From a virus: a stretch of DNA of 24,406 bases. The DNA lies in IMG/VR virus record IMGVR_UViG_3300030388_000381, positions 1-24,406 of that record. The stretch is one strand, 5' to 3'. The notes under the pieces are model-generated. The model had not been told where the DNA came from and did no database searches. It saw nothing but the letters and a program-made list of their open reading frames with translations. A program made the translations under genes and the position numbers. Below, piece after piece: positions 3,338 to 24,390 of the stretch. How positions within the stretch are numbered: position 1 is the first letter of the stretch; every line of letters starts with the position of its first letter.

Positions 3338-4255
3338 ATGAAAATAACCAACAACTTTGGGATGCCCCAACCTTTCGTAGATTTTGCCATAAATGATAAG
3401 TACAGCAAGGGTAAAGCAGATATTTCTGTAACCTCTTTAATTGACAGTCCAAGGGTCAGAGTAATGAAAGATTCTTATAATGACAAGATAGAAATTGATG
3501 CTGTCGATATGGTTTGGGCATTGTTTGGAACTGCTGTACACTCTGTGTTAGAAAGTTCTAACACTTACCCAAGGGTAGGTCATCCATCAGATAAAATTAT
3601 TAACGAAGAAAGATTGTACTCTGATCTTAATGGATGGACTATATCCGGTGCTATGGATAGGCAAGAAATCAAAGATGGTATAGCAACAATAATAGATTAC
3701 AAAGTAACATCAGTTTGGTCAGTAATTCATGGCAAACCGGAATGGGAAAAGCAATTAAATTGCTATGCTTGGCTGTTCAGAGAAAAGCATTTTTTTAAAG
3801 AATGGAAAGTTGGTTCTATAAAAATATGTGCAATACTTAGGGATTGGAATAGAAGAGAGGCAGAGAGAAGAGAAGATTATCCACAAGCACCTATAGTTTA
3901 CGTAGACATTCCTATTTGGAATGAAGAAGATGCAAAAAATTATGTGTCTGAAAGAATTTCAATTCATCAAGAGGCTCAAGTAAATTATGATTTAAATGGT
4001 TCTTTTCCTCTATGTACAAACGATGAAAGATGGCAAAAGAAAAACTCTTGGGCATTAAAGAAAAAGAAATTAAAGAGAGCTTTGAAAGTGTTTGATAACG
4101 AACAATCAGCTCATGACTATCAAGAAGTTTATCATCAACATAGACTGCATCCTAGTGATGCTACAGAAATAGAATTTCGTGGTGGAGAATACACACGATG
4201 TAAGGGCAACTATTGTTCAGTTGCTAAATTTTGCGATCAATACAATGAGGTATAA
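3338..4255 (+). CDS. PD-(D/E)XK superfamily nuclease with C-terminal Cys cluster
   Basis: This 305-aa protein looks like the RecB/Cas4/lambda-exonuclease-type PD-(D/E)XK nucleases that process DNA ends for recombination. Visible motifs in order are GTAVHSVLE (His68), GAMDRQE (Asp107), IIDYK (Asp120 and Lys122) and a QLNCY motif (Gln139, Tyr143), matching the usual H-D-DxK-QxxxY layout. The C-terminal part has Cys226 and then C-x4-C-x5-C (Cys288, 293, 299), which could hold zinc or an iron-sulfur cluster as in Cas4, AddB and Dna2. Those enzymes place their first Cys before the nuclease core, unlike here. It is first in the rightward operon behind the promoter at 3285-3312. Pairing with the annealing-type protein at 4917 suggests a two-component recombination system (inference). 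Confidence 0.88.
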   Translation: MKITNNFGMPQPFVDFAINDKYSKGKADISVTSLIDSPRVRVMKDSYNDKIEIDAVDMVWALFGTAVHSVLESSNTYPRVGHPSDKIINEERLYSDLNGWTISGAMDRQEIKDGIATIIDYKVTSVWSVIHGKPEWEKQLNCYAWLFREKHFFKEWKVGSIKICAILRDWNRREAERREDYPQAPIVYVDIPIWNEEDAKNYVSERISIHQEAQVNYDLNGSFPLCTNDERWQKKNSWALKKKKLKRALKVFDNEQSAHDYQEVYHQHRLHPSDATEIEFRGGEYTRCKGNYCSVAKFCDQYNEV

Positions 4256-7496: not shown

Positions 7497-10400
7497 TTAC
7501 TGCTCCTTTAAACCAACTTGCCTCATTAAAACAACACCGGTCTTCATAAGACCTTGAATCTTTTCAGTTCTAAGTTTTATAAGTTTTGTTCTAGTTTCAT
7601 CCGGTATTCTTAAATTTCTTTCCAACTCACGAATTTGCCTTAACAATCTATTTCTAGCATTGTCTATGGCTTTAAATCTTCCATATATACTTAACTCATC
7701 TGCGTATTTAGCCCTAACACCTCTTACTTCATTAGCATCGCCTTTTCTACTAGCCAATTCCAACCTAGCAAATATCGTATATAGACCTTTTCTGTTTTCT
7801 AAATAAGTTGATGTGTCCACTCTTTCTGATGGTGATGCGATAAGTTTCCTTACAAAAGGTATTCTTTGTTCTAAGTTACCCTCAAATTCTCCACTTAATA
7901 CATCAGGTACAGTTGAAAATACTAAATTACCAAGTCTATTGACTGTAGCACCAGCACCACCAATGGCAAACTCTATCCAATACTCCAAAACATCCGGAGA
8001 CATATCTATAAGTCCACTCTCTACTTCATCTCCTCCGGATATTGTGTTGATGATGTCAACGACAGCTTTTGGTATTACACCTGTGTTGCCCCAATATTGT
8101 TGGCTATCAGGTCTAGGCGAAGATGCGTACATAGGACTTTCTTTATATATAGGAGCTTGTTTATAATTTTTATTAATTGCTAACTCAGCAAGTGGGTCAA
8201 GAAATGTAGGGGTTGCATATGTTTGCCAATTCTCTATAGCTCCAAATGGGCTTAATGTTTCCATAGTTGTGTTAAATATTGAATTGCTTGTCTGACCAAG
8301 TGTATACTCTCCTCTAGTGTACCTGCTTAACGATCTTCCTAAGTTAACAGCCATATTTAGTCCGTATGCCAAAGGTATTTTTATAAATTTTTCATCAGAC
8401 AGACCAAGTGATGGGAAAATTAAATTGTGTTCTAACGTGTAATCATCTAAATCATCATATTGTTTTCTGCCATTATCATCTTCATCATCACTAAGGAAAG
8501 ATACAAATTGATCTTGTAGTAATCCATAAGCGACCATACCTAACCAAAGTTTTCTTACTCTCTTTGATCGTCTAGCAGCTGTTAGTAGAGCCATACTTCC
8601 TTGTAAAGATGCATTGTAAAATAAATACAAAGAGTTCATAGCAACTTTATCTTCTCCACCTTTTGCAAAGTTTACTGTCACATCTCTCGCTGCTTCGGCA
8701 GCTCGTGCATCAGAGAAGCCTCTTTTTTTCAAAGCTGTGAATGTAGCGACACGAACACCATTCTCAACTGCTGTGTTGTAATCATCTAAAAACCTCAACA
8801 TCTTTTTAAAATTGCCTTTAATAAGACCCTGATTTTTAGTCCCACCAATCTCATTAAGTAAGTTATTCATATTTGCCATTTGATCTTGAACAGTTGACAT
8901 CATGTTAGTGGCGTTCTTACCACCAGACTTAACAAACTTAATGTATTCTTGTGCCCAATAACTATTGTCGTCAAGCGTATTACTTTTTGTTTTTCTTAAA
9001 ACATTTCTTATGCCAAGAATTGCTTTTCCTGTATTTAAAGTTATTTCTTTTGTTATGCCTTCCATGTCGTATTGTTGTACGTTAACAAGAGCTGTCTCTA
9101 AATCTTTTGCAAGGTTAGGTAATACGAAAGCTGGGTTATAAGTAGTGTTAACACTAGATAGCCATCTGTTTAATTTACCTACCATTCTAATAAATGTATT
9201 ATTAGTTTGTGGTTCTGAGTGCAGTTTTAAGGATCGAGCTATAGAACTGCTGTAAATGTTTACGTGAACTTCTTGTCCATCTTCTTTAATTGTAAATTGT
9301 TGAGCGTTCATTGCATCTTTTTTTGCTTCATAAGCAATAGTTTTAGACATATCTAATGCCAAAGCTTCGTTTATAGCGACAGTTCCGTCTGGTTGTGTTT
9401 CTTCTCCTTTAATTAATTTTAAAAATGACAATCCAACTTTATTTCTTTCGCCCCTATCAATTGCTCTTACATTTTGAGCAAGAGCAGAGCCTAATATATT
9501 TTGTGCATATTTAAGACCTCTACCTTTAGCAGATCTATCTTCATTGCCCATAGCACCAAATAAATTTGTTGTTTTTCTTAAAGATTGATTTTTGTCATCT
9601 TTAAACTCTTGATCAGAATCCATGTCACCTCTTAATGGAACATAATTTTTAAAATCATTTCTTTTTTCAAAAGTTTCTTTTGTAATTAACCCAGATTCGT
9701 ATCTTTGAACGTTTGTGTTTTCTGTAATTTCTTTCACAATCATAATTGAGTTAGTAACAGCTTTTCTATTTGATTCATTTAAACTTGCAACCCAATTAAG
9801 TATCGCTGTGGCTTCATTAAAAGACATACCTGATCCCATGCCTTTACCATAATCTGTAGTTATTTTGGCATTTCTTTCTTTAGCGTGTCTAGCATAAAGA
9901 ATAGAATCTATTATTGTCATTAATGGACTAATGCTTGTTTCTAAATCAGATTTAACAAATCCATCCTGTCCTGTTAACTTCGCTGCAGTTGCAGATAGAG
10001 CAGACAAATTATTTATTTGATCTTCTGTAACATTAATTTGTTTAATCTCTTCCATTAATGGTTTAATTAAAGTTTTTTCAACTTCATCTAATTTAGAACC
10101 CGTAATACCATGAGAGTTTTTTTCTTGCAAAAATGTATCGGCTGCATCAGCAATTGTATAGCCATTATTTCTTAACTCATCCATCATCTTTCCAATAGAC
10201 TGAAAAGAATCTTGATATTTTGTTACAATTCTGTCAGCAGCTTGTGTAGCAGTTCTGCCAAAAAGAGGTTTAACTACACCAAATGGAGTTTTAATTTTTT
10301 CAGGTAATATTCCTAATCCTTTAGCTATAATTCCTGAAAGATTATCGTATCTAATATTTTGTTGTGCTTTTTCTATAGCAATATCATTTTTAATTGCTAT

Positions 10401-13400
10401 GCCTTCTCTTTGAGTTGCCCCAAAAGTGCTTGCTCTTATGCTTGATCGTCTGATCTCAGATTCTCTGGGAGAGATTCCTCCAACTCCGCTGTCATCTCCG
10501 GAATCCCTTCCGGATAAATTAGATCTAGATAGTTCTCTCTCGTAACTGGAATTTCCACTGAATTCAGATACTGTATTATCGGGTCTAGCCCAACTTGGTT
10601 CTTCAAATCCTGCTGGCGTTGCATTTATAGCCTCCTGTCTAGCTTCGTCAATAGTTAATCTTCCTTCTTTATATCTGTTCCATATGTTCTCAATTTGAGC
10701 AACTTTTTGTGGATTAGATTTAAATGTGTTTGTGTATAACCCTCTTATTGCTTCCCATGTAATGGATTGCATTTGCCTAGGTAATACACCTCTGTCATTA
10801 GCGGCTCTTGCATAAGCATCTGCTACAAGTCCATAAGTTCCTCTAGATCCACTTATGCTTGAATTAGGTATTGTTCCATATTTAGCAGCTCTTCCCTCTT
10901 TTTTGCCTCCAGTATATGCACCAAAGTTATGATCAACTTCTAAAGCTTTACCACTCAATGGTTTAAAGTGCGCTGCAGCCACGGCATGAGTGTCTATTGT
11001 TGAGTGACCTTCTTTTGAATTAGGAGTAATTAAGTTATTAAAAAAACTTCTAATTTTATGCCTATTACCCATCTGTATAGATATGTTTTCTATTGAGCCA
11101 TCTTCCATAACTGAAACAGCTTTTGACATTTCAGATAAACTTCCCCACCCTGTCTTCTTAGGGGCCCCTTTACCAGTGAGTGCGTAATTTAAAAATTCTC
11201 CTTCTGGAGTAATTATTCTATGACCTCTGTCATTATATGTTTCATCAAAAATTCTTATCCACATAGCTTTGTGAAGTGAGTGATCTAAATTATTTAAAGA
11301 AGTTGAGTTTCTACTTGTATTACTTATATGATTAAGAGCTGCTTTATACTTGTCTTTACCAAATATTCTTTTAGCTGTTACCATCATTTCAGGTGTAAAT
11401 TGTGTATTTCCAAAGTTTTTTGTAATATCTAACATTCTTTCAGACAAAGAAACGTTCATAAACCAATCTTTTTGTGGAGACTGAGCCGACATTACAGCCG
11501 CTATTACTTCTGGTTTGTATCCATATTCATTAGAAAATCTATCTATAATAGCTCTTGCGCCATCATACCATTTAGAAGATCTGTTTCTTATTTCAGGATC
11601 TATAGAGTCATATATATATAATAGATTGCCTCTCATAGCCTCAATGTAATCTTCAATTATTTCTAAGTCTGAAAAGTTTTCGTAAAGTTTTGTGTTTTCT
11701 GAAATATTATAACCTTTAATAAGGTTAGCTGCTTGACTTGCTAATTTTGGATCTTGTCTAATAGCATCACCATTAACAAGAAGAATATCATTAATAGGAT
11801 TTTCTAGGCTCTTTACAGCAGTAGGAAATCTTGTGCTTATGGTATGCTCTTGTCCAAAGGCCATTACACTAGACCTCATTAATCTAGTCGCATTTTCTCC
11901 ACGTTTTTGATTAATTTTATCTTTGTATGCCTGAGTGTATTTTTGTGGTTGATAAGTTTGTGGTATATTTAATTCATTAAACATGGCTGCGGTAAAACCA
12001 CGACCTGAAGATTTGCTCCAATACCCACTTGCCCCTGATTCTTTAATCATTCTTTCCATAGCTGTGGTTATGTAACCTAATCTACCTTCACCACGCATAG
12101 GTTGAGCTTGTTTTTCTAATTCTTGATTGGCTTTGGCATTAAATCCTTTTTCATCTTTTGCCCAATCATACATATCGTCATAAGGAACTTCTATTTCATA
12201 GATGTTGTCTCCAACATTGTCCTCTGGATTATAACCTTCAGGATCGGCAATATTAATTGCATAGTAATTTCTAGCAGGATATCCACTATATGTTCTTCTG
12301 CGCTCCGCACCACGCATGTATAAATTACTTTGTTGTTTTTCTGGGTCTATACTGTTTAGGCCCTCTACAGGAGAGAAGTGCGTAAGTGTTATTGTGCGTT
12401 CTTTTGTGACTTGAGGTTCGCTCCTCTCTTGTAATGGTTCGCTCTCGCCAAGTACATCTGTCTGTCCTCTTCCTCTTCCTTCAAGTCCTCCTCTGTCGCT
12501 GGAGTCATCTCTTCTATTATTAAATTGTTGACTTCTTCGTAAAGCTTGTTCATTTGTTTCTGCCTCCATATCATTTGCTAAACCTTCTTCCATAACAAAA
12601 TTAGACAATAATGTTACTTTTTGGTCAGCGTAAACTGTTTCTTCTGCTTTATTCTTACTATTTCTATTTTGTTCTCCTACAGATTCACTGTAGTTTACCC
12701 ATGAATTTTGTCCTCTTGTTTCTGTAGTCATGGCTTTAGCCGCTAATGGACTATACATTCTTACGTGAGCTTGCCAAGCATTCTCTTCTCCTCTAGCAGA
12801 AAATGTAGCTCCTTCTAATCCATGACCAAAATAATCATGAACTATTCTAAATATATCATTATATCTTGCATTTGCACCATCTATAATTTCCCCTGTCTTT
12901 TTTAAAAGAGGATTTCTTGAAACATCTTCTTCGGTAAAACCTTCTTTTCCAAATCCAAAATCACTAGGATAAACCCACATATGGTTATTGTTATGCAAAT
13001 CATTTAACATATCTTTAGCACCATTAGAATATGGCTCTAATTGACCAAGCTTAATCAATTCTACTTTTAACCCAGTTGCTTTTACAAACTGCCATTGGTC
13101 AAACGTTTCATCGTTCATAGCATTATAGGATTCAATAACGTCAGGATTATACGGATCATCTATAGCTGAATCAAAATCATTAGCTATTTTTTTGGCTAAT
13201 TCAACATTTAAAGTTATGTATTTATCTTGTCTTCTTGGAGTTATATTTTTTGATGCTAAATAAGCAGCTTTTGCTTTTTGTGCTTTGTCTAAAGGACCTA
13301 AAGAAGAAAGGTGTAAGTTAGGTAATCTTTCTAGTTTGGAGCTTCTTATAGTTTCACTTTGATCAACATCAAGATAATCTCTACTAGTAGCATTCTCTCT

Positions 13401-16085
13401 AGCTCTTCTACCAATTTGGTTTTCTTTATTAGTTGTTTGTATATTATCAAAGATAGAATCAATATCTTTAAAGCCTTCACTATTATGAGTTGTAAATATG
13501 CTTTTAATAAACTTAACTATTTTATCAAATAATGTTTTAGGACGACCTACAATAGACAGCTTTCCTGAAGCGTAATCTCTATACATTTCTGCAATAGCTT
13601 CTTCAACAATTTGATCTTGAGATAAATTATTATTATTATCTGGATTTGAATGCATACGTGTTGCTCTGTCTAAATACGTATACTCTCTTACTTCTTTTTT
13701 ACCATTAATTATTTTTACATATTTTCTTTTGCTTACAGCATTTTCTAAAGCAACATATTCTTTATTGCTAAATAAACCTAAGTTTTTTAATGCATGTATT
13801 ATTTCATGGTTCATTACACCAGAAAGTTCTCTTTGCAACTCTAAATCACTCATATTAGGATTGTAAAGTTCCATAGCAAGAGCTATAACTCTTTGCCCAT
13901 CTTTAGATACATCAAACGTTCCTTCAGTTATCTCTGTTAAAGCTTCTCCTAAATTTATAGATCTTTCTAAGTTGTTCTCATCTATAAGATTTCTATCGTC
14001 TAAATACACATCAGTTAATCCAACTCTGGCTAACTCTCTTCTTAATGCACTCATAACTCTTTTTTGTTTTAATCTGTATTGTTCAGTTTTTTCTAACTCT
14101 GCACTATTATCAAATGCTTTCTTTGCCACATAGTTAGGGACAATATTAGAAGCTTTAATTTTATCTTGCTTTGAATCTATTTTATTAGCTTGGTTTTCTA
14201 AATCAAAAGCAAATCTTTGTAGATCAGAAAATTCTTTTGTTAATATTTCTAATTGTTGATTGTATGTTTCGGTTTGAATAGCATCGTCTAAAGATTTACT
14301 TTTTAAGTCTTCAACAGTTTTTCTAGCTTCTATATTTTGTTTTGCTAATTCTGTTAAACCTAATGCTTGACTCTCCATGTCAACTTTAGAAGGAGCTTCC
14401 TCTACAACTCGAGCTGTATACTTTCCTGCCTTTACTATTTTACCTTTTTTCATAATAGGAGGGGTATATTCTAATGCGCCTTTAGTTAGTAATGTATTTA
14501 ATACATTATCAGCATCCTCATTGGACATTTTTTCTTTATTAATTCTTGCAGCTATACGTTTAACTTCTGCTCTATTAATAACTTTAGCTTTTAAAATTGT
14601 ATTGGTAAATTTATTTGCTAATGCTTTTTCTTCTGCGCCTTCTAACTCAGGAAACAAGTCTTCTTTTTTTTGTTGTCCACTAAGTATAGGTTTTTGATTA
14701 GCTCTTTCTCTGTTAGCAGACTCAATACCAACAACATCCTCTATCTCTTGTAGTGAAGCGGGGTCATCAACAGCTATCTTTTTACCTAAATCAACTCTAG
14801 CTTTTCTAATCTTATAAGCTTCTGCTTCTGGTAAACTAGTTAAATTTACAGGTATATAAGGAGATTTTAATTCTTTAGAGGCTTCTAAAGTTTGATTTGC
14901 TTCTTCTTGTTTTTTAATTTCTTTTTGCAAATTAGTTTGATCATTAACAACTTCACCAAAATCAATTAACTTTTGATCTTTATCAAAGTTTTCATCTATA
15001 ACAATGCCATCTTCTTTTTCTGCAGGAGGAGGTAGTTCTAATACTTTTCTTGAATTAATAAAGTTAGTAGCATTTTGTAATTTTACGCCTGCATCTTTAC
15101 CTTCTTCTTTTTGATCTTCATCTAATTGTTTATATTGTTTGTCAAATTTCTTTAACTGTCTTCCTCTTATACTGTCTACTATAAGGTTTAGCGCAGCACC
15201 TGCGCCACCACCATAAACTGCATCATCATAAGCACTTTGACCAACCTCTAAATCAGGGTTGTACAAATTTTTCTCTATCATATCTTGAACTAAACCAGCA
15301 AGTAATTCTTGGCCACCCTCTCCAATACCTGCGATTAAAGATCTTTTTAATTTGCCACCAATAGTTCTTAAAGCCTCATCTACTTTTCCAGCTGGAACTT
15401 TTTTAAGTATCCTCATAGCTGTGCCTAAATGTTTTAATAAAGGAACTAAAGGTGCGGCTTCTGATGTTCCTAGTAATCCACTAAGTTGTACAGCATCTCT
15501 TTTTGTTTCTTCGTCAAGATCTCCACCACTTTCAATAAAACTAGCTATTCTATTCATTTGATCTTGTGAAGTTATTGCAGCACCTTGTGTAGCAGCTGTA
15601 GATAAAGCTAGTCCACTTGCTAATTTAGCTCCACCACCTAAAACAGATACTGTTTTTGCAACTGCTGTAGACGGAACCAAAAATGACAAGAGAGAACCAA
15701 TAGCTTGTCCTGATTTACTAGCTACACTGTCATTCATATCAGTAACTTCACGAATATAAGCTGAAGCATCATTAGAAAAACTTTGAGCAGCTTTACCTAT
15801 GCCTGTTGTGCCAACGTCATATCCTGCTATAGATTCTCCTAAAGCAGTAATACCACCGGGTATTTGAGCAAATGACTGACCAAAACCACCTACAGTTGAT
15901 TTAGCAAAATCAATAAGCCCACCTTGTGAGTCATCAACTTCTGGTAAAGCAACCTGACCAATGCCATCTTGAGTGTCTATATACTTTTGTATAGCAACAT
16001 CTTCTTGCTGATTAGGTTGATTGCCTGATATTGCTATAGGATATGTATTGCCTGTACGTTTACTTGTTACATTAATTGTACCCAT
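7497..16085 (-). CDS. Giant polyvalent virion protein (zincin, HDYFGH, ART-like, glycosylase-like, LPD38-like)
   Basis: At 2862 aa this is over a third of the window. The start has GAGGTAAC upstream. Residues 1-30 resemble the N-terminus of podovirus internal virion proteins; about 50-320 are Gly/Ala-rich with an EGGQELLAGL helix, suiting membrane contact. After coiled regions comes a zincin-type protease motif HEIIH (760-764) with a following Glu-rich helix. Next are a domain with HDYFGH (1083-1088) and TETRGQNSWVNY; an ADP-ribosyltransferase-like region starting at 'LTHFS' (His1236) with NYY (1273-1275); and a helical domain with SPQKDW (1536-1541) and TIDTH (Asp1698, His1700) that resembles phage DUF7178 and HhH-glycosylase layouts. 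The C-terminal third has NFAKGG (2472-2477) and NASLQG (2491-2496), the LPD38 pattern. Such proteins are thought to be injected with phage DNA to counter host defence. Domain names are by eye; activity is inferred. Confidence 0.88.
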   Translation of the reverse strand: MGTINVTSKRTGNTYPIAISGNQPNQQEDVAIQKYIDTQDGIGQVALPEVDDSQGGLIDFAKSTVGGFGQSFAQIPGGITALGESIAGYDVGTTGIGKAAQSFSNDASAYIREVTDMNDSVASKSGQAIGSLLSFLVPSTAVAKTVSVLGGGAKLASGLALSTAATQGAAITSQDQMNRIASFIESGGDLDEETKRDAVQLSGLLGTSEAAPLVPLLKHLGTAMRILKKVPAGKVDEALRTIGGKLKRSLIAGIGEGGQELLAGLVQDMIEKNLYNPDLEVGQSAYDDAVYGGGAGAALNLIVDSIRGRQLKKFDKQYKQLDEDQKEEGKDAGVKLQNATNFINSRKVLELPPPAEKEDGIVIDENFDKDQKLIDFGEVVNDQTNLQKEIKKQEEANQTLEASKELKSPYIPVNLTSLPEAEAYKIRKARVDLGKKIAVDDPASLQEIEDVVGIESANRERANQKPILSGQQKKEDLFPELEGAEEKALANKFTNTILKAKVINRAEVKRIAARINKEKMSNEDADNVLNTLLTKGALEYTPPIMKKGKIVKAGKYTARVVEEAPSKVDMESQALGLTELAKQNIEARKTVEDLKSKSLDDAIQTETYNQQLEILTKEFSDLQRFAFDLENQANKIDSKQDKIKASNIVPNYVAKKAFDNSAELEKTEQYRLKQKRVMSALRRELARVGLTDVYLDDRNLIDENNLERSINLGEALTEITEGTFDVSKDGQRVIALAMELYNPNMSDLELQRELSGVMNHEIIHALKNLGLFSNKEYVALENAVSKRKYVKIINGKKEVREYTYLDRATRMHSNPDNNNNLSQDQIVEEAIAEMYRDYASGKLSIVGRPKTLFDKIVKFIKSIFTTHNSEGFKDIDSIFDNIQTTNKENQIGRRARENATSRDYLDVDQSETIRSSKLERLPNLHLSSLGPLDKAQKAKAAYLASKNITPRRQDKYITLNVELAKKIANDFDSAIDDPYNPDVIESYNAMNDETFDQWQFVKATGLKVELIKLGQLEPYSNGAKDMLNDLHNNNHMWVYPSDFGFGKEGFTEEDVSRNPLLKKTGEIIDGANARYNDIFRIVHDYFGHGLEGATFSARGEENAWQAHVRMYSPLAAKAMTTETRGQNSWVNYSESVGEQNRNSKNKAEETVYADQKVTLLSNFVMEEGLANDMEAETNEQALRRSQQFNNRRDDSSDRGGLEGRGRGQTDVLGESEPLQERSEPQVTKERTITLTHFSPVEGLNSIDPEKQQSNLYMRGAERRRTYSGYPARNYYAINIADPEGYNPEDNVGDNIYEIEVPYDDMYDWAKDEKGFNAKANQELEKQAQPMRGEGRLGYITTAMERMIKESGASGYWSKSSGRGFTAAMFNELNIPQTYQPQKYTQAYKDKINQKRGENATRLMRSSVMAFGQEHTISTRFPTAVKSLENPINDILLVNGDAIRQDPKLASQAANLIKGYNISENTKLYENFSDLEIIEDYIEAMRGNLLYIYDSIDPEIRNRSSKWYDGARAIIDRFSNEYGYKPEVIAAVMSAQSPQKDWFMNVSLSERMLDITKNFGNTQFTPEMMVTAKRIFGKDKYKAALNHISNTSRNSTSLNNLDHSLHKAMWIRIFDETYNDRGHRIITPEGEFLNYALTGKGAPKKTGWGSLSEMSKAVSVMEDGSIENISIQMGNRHKIRSFFNNLITPNSKEGHSTIDTHAVAAAHFKPLSGKALEVDHNFGAYTGGKKEGRAAKYGTIPNSSISGSRGTYGLVADAYARAANDRGVLPRQMQSITWEAIRGLYTNTFKSNPQKVAQIENIWNRYKEGRLTIDEARQEAINATPAGFEEPSWARPDNTVSEFSGNSSYERELSRSNLSGRDSGDDSGVGGISPRESEIRRSSIRASTFGATQREGIAIKNDIAIEKAQQNIRYDNLSGIIAKGLGILPEKIKTPFGVVKPLFGRTATQAADRIVTKYQDSFQSIGKMMDELRNNGYTIADAADTFLQEKNSHGITGSKLDEVEKTLIKPLMEEIKQINVTEDQINNLSALSATAAKLTGQDGFVKSDLETSISPLMTIIDSILYARHAKERNAKITTDYGKGMGSGMSFNEATAILNWVASLNESNRKAVTNSIMIVKEITENTNVQRYESGLITKETFEKRNDFKNYVPLRGDMDSDQEFKDDKNQSLRKTTNLFGAMGNEDRSAKGRGLKYAQNILGSALAQNVRAIDRGERNKVGLSFLKLIKGEETQPDGTVAINEALALDMSKTIAYEAKKDAMNAQQFTIKEDGQEVHVNIYSSSIARSLKLHSEPQTNNTFIRMVGKLNRWLSSVNTTYNPAFVLPNLAKDLETALVNVQQYDMEGITKEITLNTGKAILGIRNVLRKTKSNTLDDNSYWAQEYIKFVKSGGKNATNMMSTVQDQMANMNNLLNEIGGTKNQGLIKGNFKKMLRFLDDYNTAVENGVRVATFTALKKRGFSDARAAEAARDVTVNFAKGGEDKVAMNSLYLFYNASLQGSMALLTAARRSKRVRKLWLGMVAYGLLQDQFVSFLSDDEDDNGRKQYDDLDDYTLEHNLIFPSLGLSDEKFIKIPLAYGLNMAVNLGRSLSRYTRGEYTLGQTSNSIFNTTMETLSPFGAIENWQTYATPTFLDPLAELAINKNYKQAPIYKESPMYASSPRPDSQQYWGNTGVIPKAVVDIINTISGGDEVESGLIDMSPDVLEYWIEFAIGGAGATVNRLGNLVFSTVPDVLSGEFEGNLEQRIPFVRKLIASPSERVDTSTYLENRKGLYTIFARLELASRKGDANEVRGVRAKYADELSIYGRFKAIDNARNRLLRQIRELERNLRIPDETRTKLIKLRTEKIQGLMKTGVVLMRQVGLKEQ
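11673..11691 (-). repeat. Dispersed palindromic element, copy 4 (one mismatch)
   Basis: On the minus strand it differs from AAAACTTTACGTAAACTTT only by ACGA instead of ACGT. It lies inside the polyvalent gene and is read there as Lys-Leu-Tyr-Glu-Asn-Phe. The lysozyme copy at 20732-20750 is in the same codon frame (Lys-Leu-Tyr-Val-Asn-Phe), so coding constraint could explain part of the match. Confidence 0.4.
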
Positions 16086-16096
16086 TAAGAGTTACC

Positions 16097-18133
16097 TCAA
16101 GCTGCTGGATCTAAGTTTGGATTGTACACAGGTATTTTAAATCCACGTTTATTCATATAGTCTAATAAAAACTGTTCTTCAGCTTTGTATTTTGCAAGAT
16201 CTTCAGGTTTAAGATCTAATAAAACTGAACTAAGATCACCTTGTTTGCCATGTATTTTGTCTCTAACATCATTAAGTTTATCATACGCTTCTTTAGTTGT
16301 CATTATGCCTTTGCTTGATGCTGTTTTTAACTTTGCTCTGGCATTTATCAAGCTTGTAACTCCATCACTATATCTTTTTTGAGAATCTCCAAGTGTTTTT
16401 AATCCTGTATTCATTGCTTCACCATAGCCTTGTTGATCCATTAGATTTAAACCAACTTGAGCCAATGCCATGTATCTATCAAAATCCCTATCCTTTTTAA
16501 GTTCTCTTTGAAGATCTAATATTTCTTGTTCAGTAGAACTAAGACTTGTACTTGGAGATCCATCAGCAAAAGTATAATTAGATTTTTCAGTTTGTGTATT
16601 ATTTTTATTGTCTTTAATTTCATTGCTATTTTTGAACTTAGAAGACATATCAACATTGTTAGAAGCGCCTAAATAAGTTGAAGCTGTATTAGCGCCTTCA
16701 CCTGCAGCAATTTTATCTTGAAATTTTTTAAATTCTTCTGCGGTTAATTCAGGTGTGTTTGCTCCTGCGTTAAATTCAAGATTTTCACCTACATAGTTAA
16801 CATTTTCTGGTGTAATTAAACCTTTTAAAACATTGTTAAATTGATTTGTGTCTTCAAAAGTAGTGGATTTAGGCTGATCTTCATTTTTAATTGTATTAAT
16901 ACTATTAAATAAATTGTTTTGTAAAAAATTTTTTTCCTGTTGTGACATAAGATCTAAAGTTTTTTGATCAACATTTTTACCTATATTCTCTCCGACATTC
17001 AAATCATAATCTGCTGACTGTTTAACTTTATTAGAAAGAATTTCTGAAAGATTAGGTCTTGGTTTATTTTGTTCTAAATCGTTTTGTAATTTTAATTGTT
17101 TTAAATAAGCCAACTCTCTTGTGTTTTGAGGTATGCTATCAATAGTAAAATCAGGCCCTACACCTTTTGGCACATTGCTTTGGCTTTCATTTCTGTTATC
17201 AAGATACTCTCCACTACCTTGACCTAAAGTTCCTTGGGAAAGATTAGATGTTTGCCCTCTTAAGCCATAGTTTCCTGCTTGCGGATAAGACAGATCAACT
17301 CCAAGTTCTTCGCCTCCACTAGTATCTCCAGACAAAGAATCAATACCAGATAACAACTCATTTACTTTAGTAACATCTTCTGTTTTAGATGCTGCTATTC
17401 CTTTATTAATAAGTTCAGGACTTGTATCTCCTGTGTATCCTTCAAATTGTGCCATAGCAGGTATCAACGCTTGTTTTACTGCATCATTAGAAAAATCTAC
17501 AGGATCATCAATTCCAACACCTAAAGCTCCTGCTACCATTTTAGCATACTGTTCATTGTTTTTATTATTATCTGCTGCCGGTGCATATCTACTAATAAAA
17601 TCTCTAACAGTTGATATACCTTTATCAGCGTAAGTGTTTGATAATCTAGACATAGCTCTTAAACCAAACTCTGGAGATGCATATGTAGAGTAACCTGCAT
17701 TTTCTCCTGTCTCTCCTATAAATCCAGCTTTCCTTATATTGCCCGGATTATAATTTCTATCTGCTAATGAAGCTCCATTGGCAGCTTTAATAATGCCACC
17801 CTCTGCATACTCTTCTACATTGCCACCATTCTTCATGGTTTGTGGCATCATTGCTCCAATGCCACCTGACTCTGCGCTTTGAGGGGCCATAGCCTCAGAC
17901 ATACCCATCATTTGATTTTGAGGTACACCAGCAGAAGCAACAGTATCTTGAGCAACAGTTTGTTGTGTGCTTGCCTGTCTTGCTTCAAAATCACCTTTAA
18001 CTCTTTTTCTTCTATTAAGTTCTGAAAGCACAAGAAACTGTGGAGCACTACCACTTGGTTGTTGCATTTCTTTAACTAATTGATCTTGAGAGAAATTTTT
18101 AAGACTATCTTGTACTTCTATTACATTCATCAT
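16097..18133 (-). CDS. Virion protein with NPGNI-type peptidoglycan-degrading domain
   Basis: The N-terminus (residues 11-50) has 'FSQDQLVKEMQQPSGSAPQF' followed by 'LSELNRRKRV', an arrangement I know from internal or tail proteins of podoviruses. A Met/Gln/Gly-rich segment leads to a domain (about 126-232) with 'RNYNPGNIRK', 'SPEFGLRAM' and 'RYAPAADNNKN'. This NPGNI pattern marks a phage virion lytic domain that opens the cell wall locally during DNA entry. The rest (about 240-560) is polar, low-complexity and probably extended, followed by a helical C-terminus (about 555-678). It overlaps the preceding virion gene by four bases (ATGA) and is followed by the polyvalent gene after 11 bases. 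It is distinct from the lysozyme at 20519, so the phage has separate entry and exit muralytic functions. Confidence 0.8.
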   Translation of the reverse strand: MMNVIEVQDSLKNFSQDQLVKEMQQPSGSAPQFLVLSELNRRKRVKGDFEARQASTQQTVAQDTVASAGVPQNQMMGMSEAMAPQSAESGGIGAMMPQTMKNGGNVEEYAEGGIIKAANGASLADRNYNPGNIRKAGFIGETGENAGYSTYASPEFGLRAMSRLSNTYADKGISTVRDFISRYAPAADNNKNNEQYAKMVAGALGVGIDDPVDFSNDAVKQALIPAMAQFEGYTGDTSPELINKGIAASKTEDVTKVNELLSGIDSLSGDTSGGEELGVDLSYPQAGNYGLRGQTSNLSQGTLGQGSGEYLDNRNESQSNVPKGVGPDFTIDSIPQNTRELAYLKQLKLQNDLEQNKPRPNLSEILSNKVKQSADYDLNVGENIGKNVDQKTLDLMSQQEKNFLQNNLFNSINTIKNEDQPKSTTFEDTNQFNNVLKGLITPENVNYVGENLEFNAGANTPELTAEEFKKFQDKIAAGEGANTASTYLGASNNVDMSSKFKNSNEIKDNKNNTQTEKSNYTFADGSPSTSLSSTEQEILDLQRELKKDRDFDRYMALAQVGLNLMDQQGYGEAMNTGLKTLGDSQKRYSDGVTSLINARAKLKTASSKGIMTTKEAYDKLNDVRDKIHGKQGDLSSVLLDLKPEDLAKYKAEEQFLLDYMNKRGFKIPVYNPNLDPAA

Positions 18134-19071
18134 AATCCTGAAATTCCTTTATATAAACCAAGTCCGGCTATACCTGTGCCTAACAAATCTTTAATTGGAT
18201 TGTATTGTTGAAACTTACTTGTCTCTGTGCTTGGCTGAACTGGCACACCTCTAAGTATAGAAGATAAAAATGTAAGGTCTTCTCTAGGCATGTCTCTTTG
18301 TCTTACAAAGTCCTCATAACTCACATCAAGTCCTGCTTGCTCTCTTGCTTGTCTATCTTTTCCTATTTTTTCTAGTAACTGAGCTGACTCTATGTCTCCC
18401 GCTCTTGCCTTCTCACCTAACTGAGCTAACATTTTACTTTGTTCAGTCATAGCATCTGCTGCTCCAAGACCCATTTTTTCCGCAGAAAATTTAGCATCTC
18501 TATCTGCTCCAAATTGTTGTTGGGCTGATTCAAAAGCTTTTTGTTGTCCTTCAGCTTGTATCCTTTGCATATCTCTTTGAAGACCTTGGCCAGCTAAAGC
18601 TTGTTGAACTCCTTGCCTAGATCCGCCAAAAGCTCCAGCTTGTTGAGCTGCAAAATTACGATCACCTTGGCCTCTATCAAAATCTAAAAGAGCTTGGCTT
18701 TTTTGAACATCTAATACATTTTGTACATATGGAGACATATATTTTTTAGCTTGAGCTGAGTCAAACATTTCAGGACTAAAATTCATTCCTTGTTTAGTTC
18801 TGGCCATAGCCGATGATACCCCTGCATTAGCTGCGTCAAATCCGGGCATACCGGCTTCTGCTGTTTTTCTAGCTAAATCTCTAGATGCAGTTATATCAGT
18901 ATTTTCATTAGCTAACCTTTGGCCTGTATAAGGAGTATAGTCTCTCTTAGATTCAGACTCAGCTCTTTTCATCATATCAATTGCATATGGCTCAAAGTAT
19001 TTAGGTAAACTAGTTTGAGTTATATTTTGCTCTGTTTGCTGCTGTGGCTGACCGCCTCCACCTTTACCCAT
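18130..19071 (-). CDS. Internal/tail virion protein, helical, 313 aa
   Basis: The product begins with a Gly/Gln-rich stretch. It carries 'YTPYTGQRLA' (45-54), 'YMSPYVQNVLD' (111-121), 'QQAGAFGGSRQ' (143-153) and long Gln/Ala-rich helices with 'QRIQAEGQQKAFESAQQQF' (169-187), then a short Gly-rich hydrophobic C-terminus (about 295-313). This order is common to a widespread podovirus structural protein found between tail and ejection proteins, but I cannot name a characterised member. The start overlaps the GNAT-like gene by eight bases, with GGAGAT upstream. A role in the tail tip or in the ejected core is inferred from neighbours and composition. Confidence 0.75.
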   Translation of the reverse strand: MGKGGGGQPQQQTEQNITQTSLPKYFEPYAIDMMKRAESESKRDYTPYTGQRLANENTDITASRDLARKTAEAGMPGFDAANAGVSSAMARTKQGMNFSPEMFDSAQAKKYMSPYVQNVLDVQKSQALLDFDRGQGDRNFAAQQAGAFGGSRQGVQQALAGQGLQRDMQRIQAEGQQKAFESAQQQFGADRDAKFSAEKMGLGAADAMTEQSKMLAQLGEKARAGDIESAQLLEKIGKDRQAREQAGLDVSYEDFVRQRDMPREDLTFLSSILRGVPVQPSTETSKFQQYNPIKDLLGTGIAGLGLYKGISGL

Positions 19072-19495
19072 TATCTATCTCCATTTTGTAAGCAATATAA
19101 TCAGGTTTCCAATTATATTTTTTTAAAACTCTCATCCATGCTTTTCTACCATAACCTTCTAAATGAGTGCAGTCACAGTCTTTTGCAAATTCTGTTAATT
19201 TTTTCATAGCTACAGGCATCCATTCTGACATTTTGCTACCACCAATCCAATCCATAGCTAATGATTTTTTATTTGGATATGATATTATACGAGTTGTAAT
19301 TGCAGCCACTACTTTACTTTCTTCATTATTTTCATCTATAGCTAACCATAAACTATAAACACCATTTTCTAAATCACGATAAATATCATCAACGTGAAAC
19401 CTACCGCTACTAGTTGCCACTGCTTTAGCCAGCATGTAAGCAACATCTTGCCAAACAATATCTAAAGCTTCTCTAGGAACTGCTGTAAATATCAT
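19064..19495 (-). CDS. GNAT-like acetyltransferase fold protein in the virion operon
   Basis: This 143-aa protein has the secondary-structure order of GNAT acyltransferases. A helix with 'VAYMLAKAVATSSGRF' comes first, then strands around 'SLWLAIDENN' and 'VVAAITTRIISYP', then a helix ('MKKLTEFAKDCDC') and 'HLEGYGRKAWMRVLKKYNWKP'. I see no clear R/Q-x-x-G-x-G/A acetyl-CoA loop, so activity is uncertain. Similar GNAT-like proteins sit in the structural region of many podoviruses. It overlaps its upstream neighbour by four bases (ATGA) and the downstream one by eight, so it is translated with the virion proteins. It could modify a virion or host protein, or serve as a structural adaptor (inference). 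Confidence 0.68.
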   Translation of the reverse strand: MIFTAVPREALDIVWQDVAYMLAKAVATSSGRFHVDDIYRDLENGVYSLWLAIDENNEESKVVAAITTRIISYPNKKSLAMDWIGGSKMSEWMPVAMKKLTEFAKDCDCTHLEGYGRKAWMRVLKKYNWKPDYIAYKMEIDNG

Positions 19496-21674: not shown

Positions 21675-22054
21675 TATAAAGCGCTTTGTGGCGTTCTGTG
21701 TAAAGCAAACTCTTGTATACTTGCTACAACATGCAATCTATTAGCCGTTGCTGCTGTTACTGTTAATATTTCTCCACTTTGTAATATTAAATCTTCTGTT
21801 AACAGTTCTATTGTTGTGCTAGCTCCAACCGCTTTTACATGAAACAAAGTAAACACAGTGCTTCCATTAGTAATAATCATTGTTATTGTATCAGCATTGC
21901 CAGAATCTTCTGCAACTAATATTGAATTAATAACAGAGGCATTAAAATCTGAAGAGCTTGGAGCAGTGTACAAAACAGTAGCATTTGTTGTTGTTAAATC
22001 TAATTTAGCATTAGTTAAACCTTGAACATATTGCGGTATACTAGTAATTAACAT
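21674..22054 (-). CDS. Small beta-rich virion protein, 126 aa
   Basis: The product alternates short strands with Thr/Ser/Ala turns ('ATVLYTAPSSSDFN', 'VINSILVAEDSGNADTITMII', 'LQSGEILTVTAATANRLHVVASI'). That is the texture of phage capsid-decoration or tail-fibre-base proteins with a jelly-roll fold. No membrane segment or catalytic motif is visible. It is linked by one-base TAATG overlaps to the stabilisation protein upstream and the small Cys protein downstream. A virion or host-contact role is likely from fold style and neighbours. The exact place in the particle is not determined. Confidence 0.7.
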   Translation of the reverse strand: MLITSIPQYVQGLTNAKLDLTTTNATVLYTAPSSSDFNASVINSILVAEDSGNADTITMIITNGSTVFTLFHVKAVGASTTIELLTEDLILQSGEILTVTAATANRLHVVASIQEFALHRTPQSAL

Positions 22055-24390
22055 TATCTTTTTCCATCTGGGACCACATTAACTTGTGGTGTGCCTAATT
22101 TAAATTTTGTACCTAAAGAAGTGGACTCAACTCTTAATGCAAATGTTCTTCCTCTAACTCTTATGTCTAATTTTTCTGTGTATGTTTCTACAGGGCTTGT
22201 AGCTGTTCTTTGCGTTGCCTCTGTGTCAGTTTGAGTAAACCCTGAACCAGAATGAGATTTAGCTTTTACAGTAAAATTAACACTAGGATTAGTTGATGTA
22301 GATCCATTAAAATTAATGTCAGGTATAATTCTGTTTATAGAAGCAAACTTACTACCATCTCCTAGTGCCATAGGAGCTGACTCTACAAATGCTGTTATAG
22401 CAGATCCATCATCATCAAAGCCTGTTTCATGATTGTATAAATATTGTCCACCAGTTGCTATAGGCAACGTTCTAATACCTCTATCTAACCATGCTTGCCT
22501 TTCAAGAGTTCCAAAATACCAAACATTTTCTAAATAATTATACGTTACATAAGAATCAATTTCAGTAGTACTAGCACTAGGATAAAACCATATTATCTCA
22601 CTAAATTCTGAATTAACTCCAACATGCACCTTTGATTTTTCTTCAAAATTAAAATTTAAAAATACTTTATCTTTTACAGAGCAAGGTATTTGTTGAGTCT
22701 GTCCTGAATAAACATAAAATGTATCAACTCCCATCCAATATACGCTATCGTCAACAGCTACAGCTGAAGCAGAACTCATAATAGTTATATTTTTAGCAAG
22801 CTCCTTTATACCAAATGTAAATGGAGGGCCAATAAACTTCATTGCGTGTAAACTTTTATTTGTAAAAACTAATATTTGTTCTTTTGTTTCTACTGCTTGC
22901 ATAAACTCAGATCCACCACCTAACCTAATTTCACCAGCAGTATTTGTGGTAGTTGGAAACCAGTCTACAGGATTCTCTTGAGAAGAAAACCTTATTAACA
23001 ACGGATCTTGAACGCCATTACCTTGTGTTGTTGTAAGAGATGCGCCTAACGCATCAGCTCCAAATGCTATTACATGCCTATCTGAATCAGAAACTATAAT
23101 TTGTTTACATATTTGAGGCACACTTGTTTCGCCACTCAATATAGTTGTTGCGCTTAGTTCAATAGCTCTGGCTGTTAAACCTGAACTTCTATCCCAATAA
23201 AACAAACCTCCATTTCTAGGGTTAATAATTAAATCTTCACCAAAATTATCATGAGACCAAAGTCTTATCTGCGCTCCCGGAACCGTAATTGCGGCAGCAT
23301 TTCCAAACCCTACAAAATCATCTAAAGCTGAAACATTACCTTTTACTAAAAAAACTAATGTATTGTCCGTATGAGTTACAGCAGTTGTCCCACTGTGCCC
23401 TCTTGTTACGGTCATAGTGTCGTCATCGCCTGTGTTCGCCACAAGCATTAATTCTTGATCAACTAAAATAACATCTCCAGCAGCAGTCATGCCAGTTTCA
23501 TCGTCAACATCAACAGCAGTCTCACTATTATCTAAAGCTTCGTTAAGTTGCGTAGATTTAGCATTACTTGTTGTGCCACTCCATTGACCAGCTCCCCAAC
23601 CGGTTCCACCAACCGTTGTATTAAGACCAGTGTTTATTTGATAGGTTGCTTTTGAAATATTAAAAGACAAAGTTCCATTTGTTACTGAACCACCAGTAGT
23701 AGATGCACTAAGCTCAAATGTTGTTGAATTTGTAATTGAAGATACCGTAGCGCCTGCTGGTATCCCTGTGCCGGTAACTGGTATCCCTGCAACAAGAAGA
23801 GCTGTGCTATCCATTGTTATAGTAGGGTCATTATTATAATCACAAGTAGCATCTGTAAAAAACCCATTACTTGTGTCTGATGAATTAGCAGCAACAGAAG
23901 ATATAATTGTGTAAGAATTTGAACTTATTAGCGCTACAATTTTATATTCTATATTTAATATTGCTGCTGTAATAACACCACCTAAACTATCTGCACCAGA
24001 AAAAGTAACAAAATCATTTTCATTTGCACCATGCGCAGGATCTATTACGGTTATAGTTGTAGAGCCATTAGATGCAGAAAAAGTAATATCACCCGCACTT
24101 GTAATTACTCTTATTGGAGTGATGTCATTAAACGTTTGGCCTTCTTCTATATAATACTTTAACTCAGTCCCCAACCCTAAAAAATCTGAACCATCTAATG
24201 CAATCCAGTTATGTAATCTTCTTGCTGACCCTTCGTAATCACTGGGGCTATACTTAGACCAGCCTCCCATTTTTTCTGGTGTGCCTAATCTAAATCTAAT
24301 TTTATCCCCATCTACAAACCCACCTTCAGTGCTATAAGGTGTGTTATCAGAAGATATACCAGCTTTAAAATTTAATTTGGTTAATGGCAT
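22054..24390 (-). CDS. Tail/packaged-DNA stabilisation protein with inserted beta modules
   Basis: The 778-aa protein starts 'MPLTKLNFKAGISSDNTPYS', 'GGFVDGDKIRFRLGTPEKMGGW', a signature of the podovirus stabilisation/tail-nozzle protein that closes the portal after packaging. The core continues with 'GTGWGAGQWSG' (262-272), 'IRLWSHDNFGEDL' (375-387) and a beta-rich body (about 395-778) ending in a sandwich. Two modules interrupt the usual core: about 177-245 ('AGIPVTGTGIPAGATVSSI', a tail-fibre-type repeat) and about 279-352 ('MTVTRGHSGTTAVTH', another common beta module). The ATG has AAAGG upstream and overlaps a possible earlier stop (TAATG). It is the first complete gene of the late operon in this window; capsid genes probably lie beyond the right edge. 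Confidence 0.85.
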   Translation of the reverse strand: MPLTKLNFKAGISSDNTPYSTEGGFVDGDKIRFRLGTPEKMGGWSKYSPSDYEGSARRLHNWIALDGSDFLGLGTELKYYIEEGQTFNDITPIRVITSAGDITFSASNGSTTITVIDPAHGANENDFVTFSGADSLGGVITAAILNIEYKIVALISSNSYTIISSVAANSSDTSNGFFTDATCDYNNDPTITMDSTALLVAGIPVTGTGIPAGATVSSITNSTTFELSASTTGGSVTNGTLSFNISKATYQINTGLNTTVGGTGWGAGQWSGTTSNAKSTQLNEALDNSETAVDVDDETGMTAAGDVILVDQELMLVANTGDDDTMTVTRGHSGTTAVTHTDNTLVFLVKGNVSALDDFVGFGNAAAITVPGAQIRLWSHDNFGEDLIINPRNGGLFYWDRSSGLTARAIELSATTILSGETSVPQICKQIIVSDSDRHVIAFGADALGASLTTTQGNGVQDPLLIRFSSQENPVDWFPTTTNTAGEIRLGGGSEFMQAVETKEQILVFTNKSLHAMKFIGPPFTFGIKELAKNITIMSSASAVAVDDSVYWMGVDTFYVYSGQTQQIPCSVKDKVFLNFNFEEKSKVHVGVNSEFSEIIWFYPSASTTEIDSYVTYNYLENVWYFGTLERQAWLDRGIRTLPIATGGQYLYNHETGFDDDGSAITAFVESAPMALGDGSKFASINRIIPDINFNGSTSTNPSVNFTVKAKSHSGSGFTQTDTEATQRTATSPVETYTEKLDIRVRGRTFALRVESTSLGTKFKLGTPQVNVVPDGKR

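Follow-up and report, generated by a model that had tools for sequence, protein, structure and literature searches.

A giant gene at the end of a phage virion block encodes a putative ejection protein with a constant frame and an exchangeable cassette of enzyme-like domains

The window analysed here is a whole IMG/VR virus contig of 24,406 bp, of which 35% is occupied by a single giant gene. The original prediction, a protein of 2862 amino acids covering more than one-third of the window, gave the limits of this ORF exactly and left its minus strand unstated. The giant gene is the last of a block that runs, in the order toward it, through the genes for a stabilization-type protein, a lysozyme, orf19492, an acetyltransferase-like protein, a DNA-ejection-protein homologue and orf16097. 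The features of the block and the regions of the giant protein are as follows.

22054–24390, minus strand: stabilization-type virion protein (phrog_3287), with small genes between it and the lysozyme gene
20519, minus strand: lysozyme gene
19064–19495, minus strand: acetyltransferase-like small protein by our reading of the sequence, syntenic in relatives
18130–19071, minus strand: DNA ejection protein homologue (phrog_4287, E 8.5e-9), syntenic in relatives
16097–18133, minus strand: orf16097, 678 aa, with endolysin and tape-measure PHROG matches, always adjoining the giant gene in relatives
7497–16085, minus strand: giant gene, 2862 aa, uninterrupted from an ATG start, putative ejection or polyvalent protein
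15066–16085, minus strand: N domain, residues 1–340, Gly/Ala-rich, part of the constant frame (chassis)
14046–15065, minus strand: middle region, residues 341–680, the least conserved chassis part
13296–14045, minus strand: zincin-like metallopeptidase, residues 681–930, with HEIIH at 760–764 (13794–13808)
12546–13250, minus strand: D3170 domain, residues 946–1180 (phrog_3170, E 8.8e-16)
11901–12413, minus strand: ART/RES-like domain, residues 1225–1395, with H1236 and Y1274
10584–11849, minus strand: DUF7178 domain, residues 1413–1834 (Pfam DUF7178, PF23802, E 1.7e-23, 84 bits against a cut-off of 27), with conserved sites SPQ 1536–1538, K1677 (11055–11057) and D1698 (10992–10994)
10254–10583, minus strand: linker following DUF7178, residues 1835–1944, fastest-evolving (dN/dS 0.2–0.9)
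7500–10253, minus strand: C-terminal chassis, residues 1945–2862 (phrog_14770, E 1.3e-108)
7926–8465, minus strand: LPD38, residues 2541–2720 (E 4.5e-29)

Full-length relatives of the giant protein were found at 99, 96, about 74–75 and 55% identity, all with the frame kept. Except in the linker, all domains had a dN/dS ratio of 0.12–0.29 when compared with L003 (the 96% relative) and of 0.13–0.22 when compared with L004 (the 75% relative). Because of these full-length relatives and the low dN/dS, the ORF is not a product of chance, and it is under purifying selection. In one related contig (IMGVR_UViG_3300006749_000412, loci L173 and L207; L173:7600–7720), a single in-frame TGA, falling after the ART and before the DUF7178 domain, splits the giant frame into ORFs of 1391 and 1466 aa, either as a natural split or by assembly error.

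The predicted placement in a virion operon is borne out by the neighbours, namely the stabilization-type protein, the lysozyme, the DNA-ejection-protein homologue and orf16097. The gene order from the lysozyme gene on is kept, as far as the contigs reach, in L003, L013, L015, L091 and L211, and the identical upstream order was also observed in L232, L239, L242, L243 and L249, whose giant proteins have different middles. Every chassis relative whose contig extends there has the acetyltransferase-like gene, flanked by orf19492 and the ejection-protein gene. Close relatives encode orf16097 proteins of anything between about 320 and 780 aa; in L003 the best-matching segment shows only 40% identity, versus 72–97% for the neighbour genes. 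Among cultured phages, the closest relatives of the stabilization protein belong to phage DSL-LC04, pelagiphages HTVC023P and HTVC027P, and roseophages CRP-901 and CRP-902; these relatives suggest a marine proteobacterium as the probable host, and since their genomes are 52–62 kb in size, the window likely represents less than half of the phage genome. Elsewhere in the window, a PDDEXK_14 phage endonuclease (6424–6861, plus strand) was identified with a strong match (E 7.1e-35) and a PD-(D/E)XK protein at 3338–4255 with a weak Cas4 match, while tRNA genes and Rfam families were not found in the window.

When HMMs of seven regions of the giant protein were run over all fetched loci, the N-terminus, the middle region, the zincin and the C-terminus formed a constant frame, and the part between the zincin and the C-terminus was variable. 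Thus roughly 1000 residues between the zincin and the C-terminus are a cassette that is exchanged among related phages. A total of nine distinct full-length chassis ORFs (2754–3318 aa) lacked D3170, and eight of the nine also lacked detectable DUF7178. The chassis protein of L232, one of these nine, carries a PBECR5 nuclease in its cassette, that of L255 carries ART and DUF7178, and those of L260 and L262 carry D3170. The domains of the cassette are better conserved than the N and middle regions of the chassis. Relatives L004–L007 have some 200 additional residues between the zincin and D3170 (L004:5355–6722), possibly a further cargo module.

The original parse of the protein into an N-terminus, a zincin, three more putative enzymes and an LPD38-like C-terminus was right, the last by the LPD38 match listed above. 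As to the membrane-active look ascribed to the N-terminus, the N domain is present and its membrane character is weak, with a single borderline hydrophobic stretch at residues 128–150 (KD19 1.51). The middle region of relatives gave weak Pfam matches of winged-helix type (MCM_C, DUF4423). The zincin protease is supported by the HEIIH motif and a downstream Glu within EEAIAEMY (residues 828–835), the HExxH and EE motifs being invariant in 19 relatives; Peptidase_M13 was matched weakly by 10 of 19 zincin members (best E 2.1e-4), and a PDB sequence search with the zincin profile gave no match. Self-processing is the role proposed for polyvalent zincin/MPTase domains (Iyer et al., PMC5512222), but since the N4 vRNAP is packaged uncut (PMC5512222), the zincin may by analogy be merely structural. 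By itself the C-terminus (29% of the query) is related, at 24–29% identity, to proteins of Ruegeria phages, among them 45A6, and of Stx-converting and Vibrio phages. Its structure model was poor (pLDDT 63) with generic helix matches only, and no ejection-protein fold, T7 gp16-like or other, was seen in this model, which is too poor to classify. By Foldseek against PDB, neither this model nor that of residues 945–1850 gave an E below 0.001; terpene synthases and transporters, which appeared with low scores, carry no meaning. Likewise, PDB sequence searches with whole-protein, D3170, D7178 and zincin profiles gave nothing meaningful, and the rows of galactose-1-phosphate uridylyltransferase and m4D2 in these searches were attributed to chance or composition.

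The three further putative enzyme domains of the original prediction correspond to conserved enzyme-like domains at residues 946–1180, 1225–1395 and 1413–1834, and the suggested profile–profile comparison and structure prediction led to assignment of the second and third, by predicted fold, as ART-like and HhH-GPD-glycosylase-like. For this purpose residues 945–1850 were modelled with AF2 (mean pLDDT 83, and mostly above 90 in DUF7178), and the model was aligned to 600 PDB chains. The ART-like domain was aligned by VIA-align (range of Z, 4.4–7.6) with MbcT (Z 7.6), ParT (6.1), RES (5.4) and the diphtheria toxin catalytic domain (5.2), and H1236 and Y1274 were invariant in 13 of 13 sequences. 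These two residues match the pair of the H-Y-D clade of polyvalent ARTs, whose H belongs to strand 1 and whose Y to strand 2 (PMC5512222). The column at the strand-5 acidic position holds N, Y, D or E, and an acid occurs at one or the other of two adjacent positions. Support for an ADP-ribosyltransferase-like fold of residues 1225–1395 is good.

All the fold matches of DUF7178 with Z above 3 (4.8–9.8, moderate for a helical domain) were HhH-GPD enzymes. The VIA-align rows included Qng1/DUF2419 (Z 9.8–8.6), Pa-AGOG (8.0 and 7.5), MUTYH (6.3), OGG1 (5.9) and two AGOG-type entries (5.6 and 4.8), and unrelated rows appeared from 2.8 down. In the model, K1677 (model residue 733) begins the second helix after the hairpin, and D1698 (model residue 754) caps the next helix within IDTH; the Asp is conserved in 35 of 35 aligned rows and the Lys in 36 of 37. 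An equivalent K...VDTH arrangement was found in the fetched EndoIII-type sequences, the spacing from K to D being 21 in the giant protein and 18 both in these sequences and in S-CBP42 gp36. The family PF00730 (HhH-GPD) was not matched in the window, and direct hhalign of D7178 against HhH-GPD gave no profile similarity (p 0.66). After this direct comparison had failed, compact DUF7178 proteins such as S-CBP42 gp36 (L310:30543–31136; DUF7178 164 bits) were used as a bridge: they matched the DUF7178 of the giant protein by hhalign with E 1.6e-26, and HhH-GPD with p 0.0017, the Lys and Asp being in register; an unrelated control gave about 0.4. Q_salvage (PF10343) and AGOG (PF09171) gave no matches among the searched genomes, and the controls likewise gave none. 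In some records of Mycobacterium and Gordonia phages, compact DUF7178 proteins are labelled "glycosylase" or "N-glycosylase". The predicted fold, together with this bridge, makes a good case that DUF7178 belongs to the HhH-GPD glycosylase superfamily, though not filed under PF00730, and that its most likely reaction is excision of a nucleic-acid base. DNA is the first guess for its substrate, since apart from Qng1 the matching families are DNA-acting, but the substrate may be another one, as Qng1, a queuosine-nucleotide hydrolase, slightly outranks the DNA glycosylases.

No Pfam family was matched by D3170 in 11 members. Its invariant residues in the alignments are H1083-D1084...H1088, E1100, H1107 and E1122, within the pattern HDYFGH...GEENAW..H...ETRGQ of the giant protein, and a total of 39 D3170 sequences share H-D-x-F-G-H, G-E-x-N-A-W-x-x-H and T-E-T-R-G-Q-N-S; judged from these common motifs, the domain is enzyme-like. 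It was modelled with pLDDT mostly above 90. Parts of giant proteins from cyanobacterial phages are 41–48% identical to it, and mycobacteriophage gp99 (433 aa), encoded a few genes before a head decoration protein, is 31% identical. D3170 is likely a metal-dependent enzyme. Aromatic amino acid hydroxylases have an iron site similar to the H-D-x-x-G-H motif, a comparison chosen after the motif had been seen, and the profile of these hydroxylases was matched with p 0.0013 over only 32 columns (controls, about 0.4–0.6); D3170 gave no PDB profile match and was absent from the fold-list rows of the 945–1850 model. The aromatic-hydroxylase-like iron enzyme is a lead, not an assignment, and our reading of the chemistry is weak.

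Among 55 distinct D3170 loci outside the chassis family, DUF7178 was present in the same ORF in 14 and in another ORF in one. The two domains are fused in both orders, and both are present in a 3606-aa protein of a bacterial genome. Because of this repeated fusion in both orders, D3170 and DUF7178 probably work together in one shared task.

Long DUF7178 proteins of 530–790 aa were found in dozens of contigs. In the T7-like L052, the gene order is major head, tail tube, tail, internal virion protein (phrog_418), a 548-aa protein, the DUF7178 protein, internal virion protein (phrog_6651) and tail fibre, and in roseophage CRP-738 such a long DUF7178 protein is encoded between the portal and coat genes. 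The compact genes are annotated as hypothetical or glycosylase. In cyanophages they belong to the early region and lie a short way upstream of the phage RNA polymerase, and in actinophages and Siovirus they are found close to the start or the end of the genome. These placements suggest a common theme of action at the start of infection. Entry into the host together with the DNA, as the original prediction expected, is inferred but well supported by the gene order, the N4-vRNAP-like layout and the DUF7178 homologues between internal-virion-protein genes. Virion proteomics naming an LPD38-type protein was not found in the papers examined; the detected proteins named in a paper on LPD38-bearing coliphages are head, fibre and virion structural proteins only.

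The case is strong for the architecture and the gene position, and the explanation that we favour, with somewhat better than even confidence, is that the phage is a marine, podovirus-like (short-tailed) phage and that the giant protein is its large ejection (pilot) protein, built of chassis and cargo, which would deliver the D3170, ART-like and HhH-GPD-type domains. By analogy with what has been proposed for N4 vRNAP, the N-terminus and the 900-aa LPD38-type C-terminus would anchor the protein in the virion and the delivery channel. The zincin, from its position, would free the cargo by cleavage. The cargo, consisting of D3170 as a probable metal enzyme, the ADP-ribosyltransferase-like domain and the DUF7178 glycosylase of putative HhH-GPD type, would then reach the cytoplasm together with the DNA and be active before phage gene expression. 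It is very unlikely that the giant protein is mainly a structural ejection or tape protein with decayed enzyme-like domains or spacers: its gene does end the structural block, and podoviruses commonly have large ejection proteins (PMC12633501), but the cassette domains are better conserved than the N and middle regions and have dN/dS of 0.12–0.29, and the catalytic-type K, D, H and E residues are invariant in dozens of sequences.

As to what the cargo does, the original prediction regarded this gene as the best place in the window for an undescribed anti-defence system. Such an activity is possible but unsupported, for the giant protein matched no PADLOC family, and its two fold-assigned domains fit DNA repair, host takeover and anti-defence equally. 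In this direction the cassette might remove host-modified bases, depurinate host DNA or RNA, or, in the manner of Qng1, hydrolyse a nucleotide, for example an immune signal, with host proteins as the targets of the ART. The virion-block or early-gene placement in separate phage groups, the ART partner, Qng1 as the top fold match and the PBECR5-nuclease cassette of L232 are in its favour, and with PADLOC against it we hold it as a tentative possibility. Rather less probable is that the cassette protects or repairs the incoming genome, the glycosylase excising light- or oxidation-damaged bases of virion DNA after entry with no action on the host. The fold-matched HhH-GPD relatives are 8-oxoguanine repair enzymes, DUF7178 keeps K and D in the pattern of bifunctional repair enzymes, and a pyrimidine-dimer glycosylase is known from the marine roseophage CRP-810 (PMC11288001), but DUF7178 is fused with D3170 and here also with ART, neither of them a known repair function, and its compact early genes sit among small unknown genes rather than replication genes. 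A more specific proposal, that D3170 alters a base or nucleotide which DUF7178 then excises, so that an injected pair would act on host nucleic acid, marks or signals before phage expression, is an improbable one.

The giant protein is a polyvalent protein, a kind already described (Iyer et al. 2017, PMC5512222), as it is located among virion genes and combines, by sequence and predicted fold, at least two disparate activities (zincin, ART-like, glycosylase-like, D3170 and LPD38). The 2017 descriptions of giant polyvalent proteins are mostly lists of domains; a fixed chassis with interchangeable cassettes and constant upstream genes makes phage-injected cargo testable module by module. The recurrent fusion of D3170 with DUF7178 hints, if virion-delivered, at an undescribed enzyme pair active at the first moment of infection, and a DUF7178 glycosylase truly delivered by the virion would join N4 vRNAP as an enzyme accompanying the genome.

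With the proteins of Iyer et al. the giant protein shares the joining of several unrelated enzyme domains in one protein linked to virion genes, the zincin MPTase hub, the ART with H and Y, and LPD38, which in their survey occurs in phage-type proteins only (PMC5512222). It differs in its glycosylase-like domain and D3170, as neither glycosylase nor hydroxylase appears in their main text (PMC5512222), and in that a constant chassis and a swappable cassette with fixed upstream genes are here resolved within one lineage. The closest working model is N4 gp50 (vRNAP), a protein of about 3500 aa with a membrane-associated N-terminus, a middle enzyme and a large C-terminal domain, which is ejected alongside two smaller ejection proteins (PMC12633501) and in which an MPTase domain has been reported (PMC5512222). 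The likeness, known here from genes and predicted folds, lies in the giant size and the three-part layout, but no RNA polymerase was found in the giant protein, whose middle consists of D3170, ART-like and glycosylase-like domains. The compact DUF7178 proteins (S-CBP42 gp36, ResDef gp85, WilliamBoone gp181) have SPxxxW...N, GPK/HK, IDxHA and QxITW in the same order as the giant-protein version, but they are products of early-region genes of about 190–210 aa, whereas the latter is longer by about 150–200 residues and lies inside a virion-block protein. With the HhH-GPD enzymes (Pa-AGOG, OGG1, MUTYH and Qng1/DUF2419) the DUF7178 of the giant protein shares the predicted fold, the helix-hairpin-helix Lys and the helix-capping Asp, but is different from these enzymes with respect to its large insertion and the lack of a PF00730 match.
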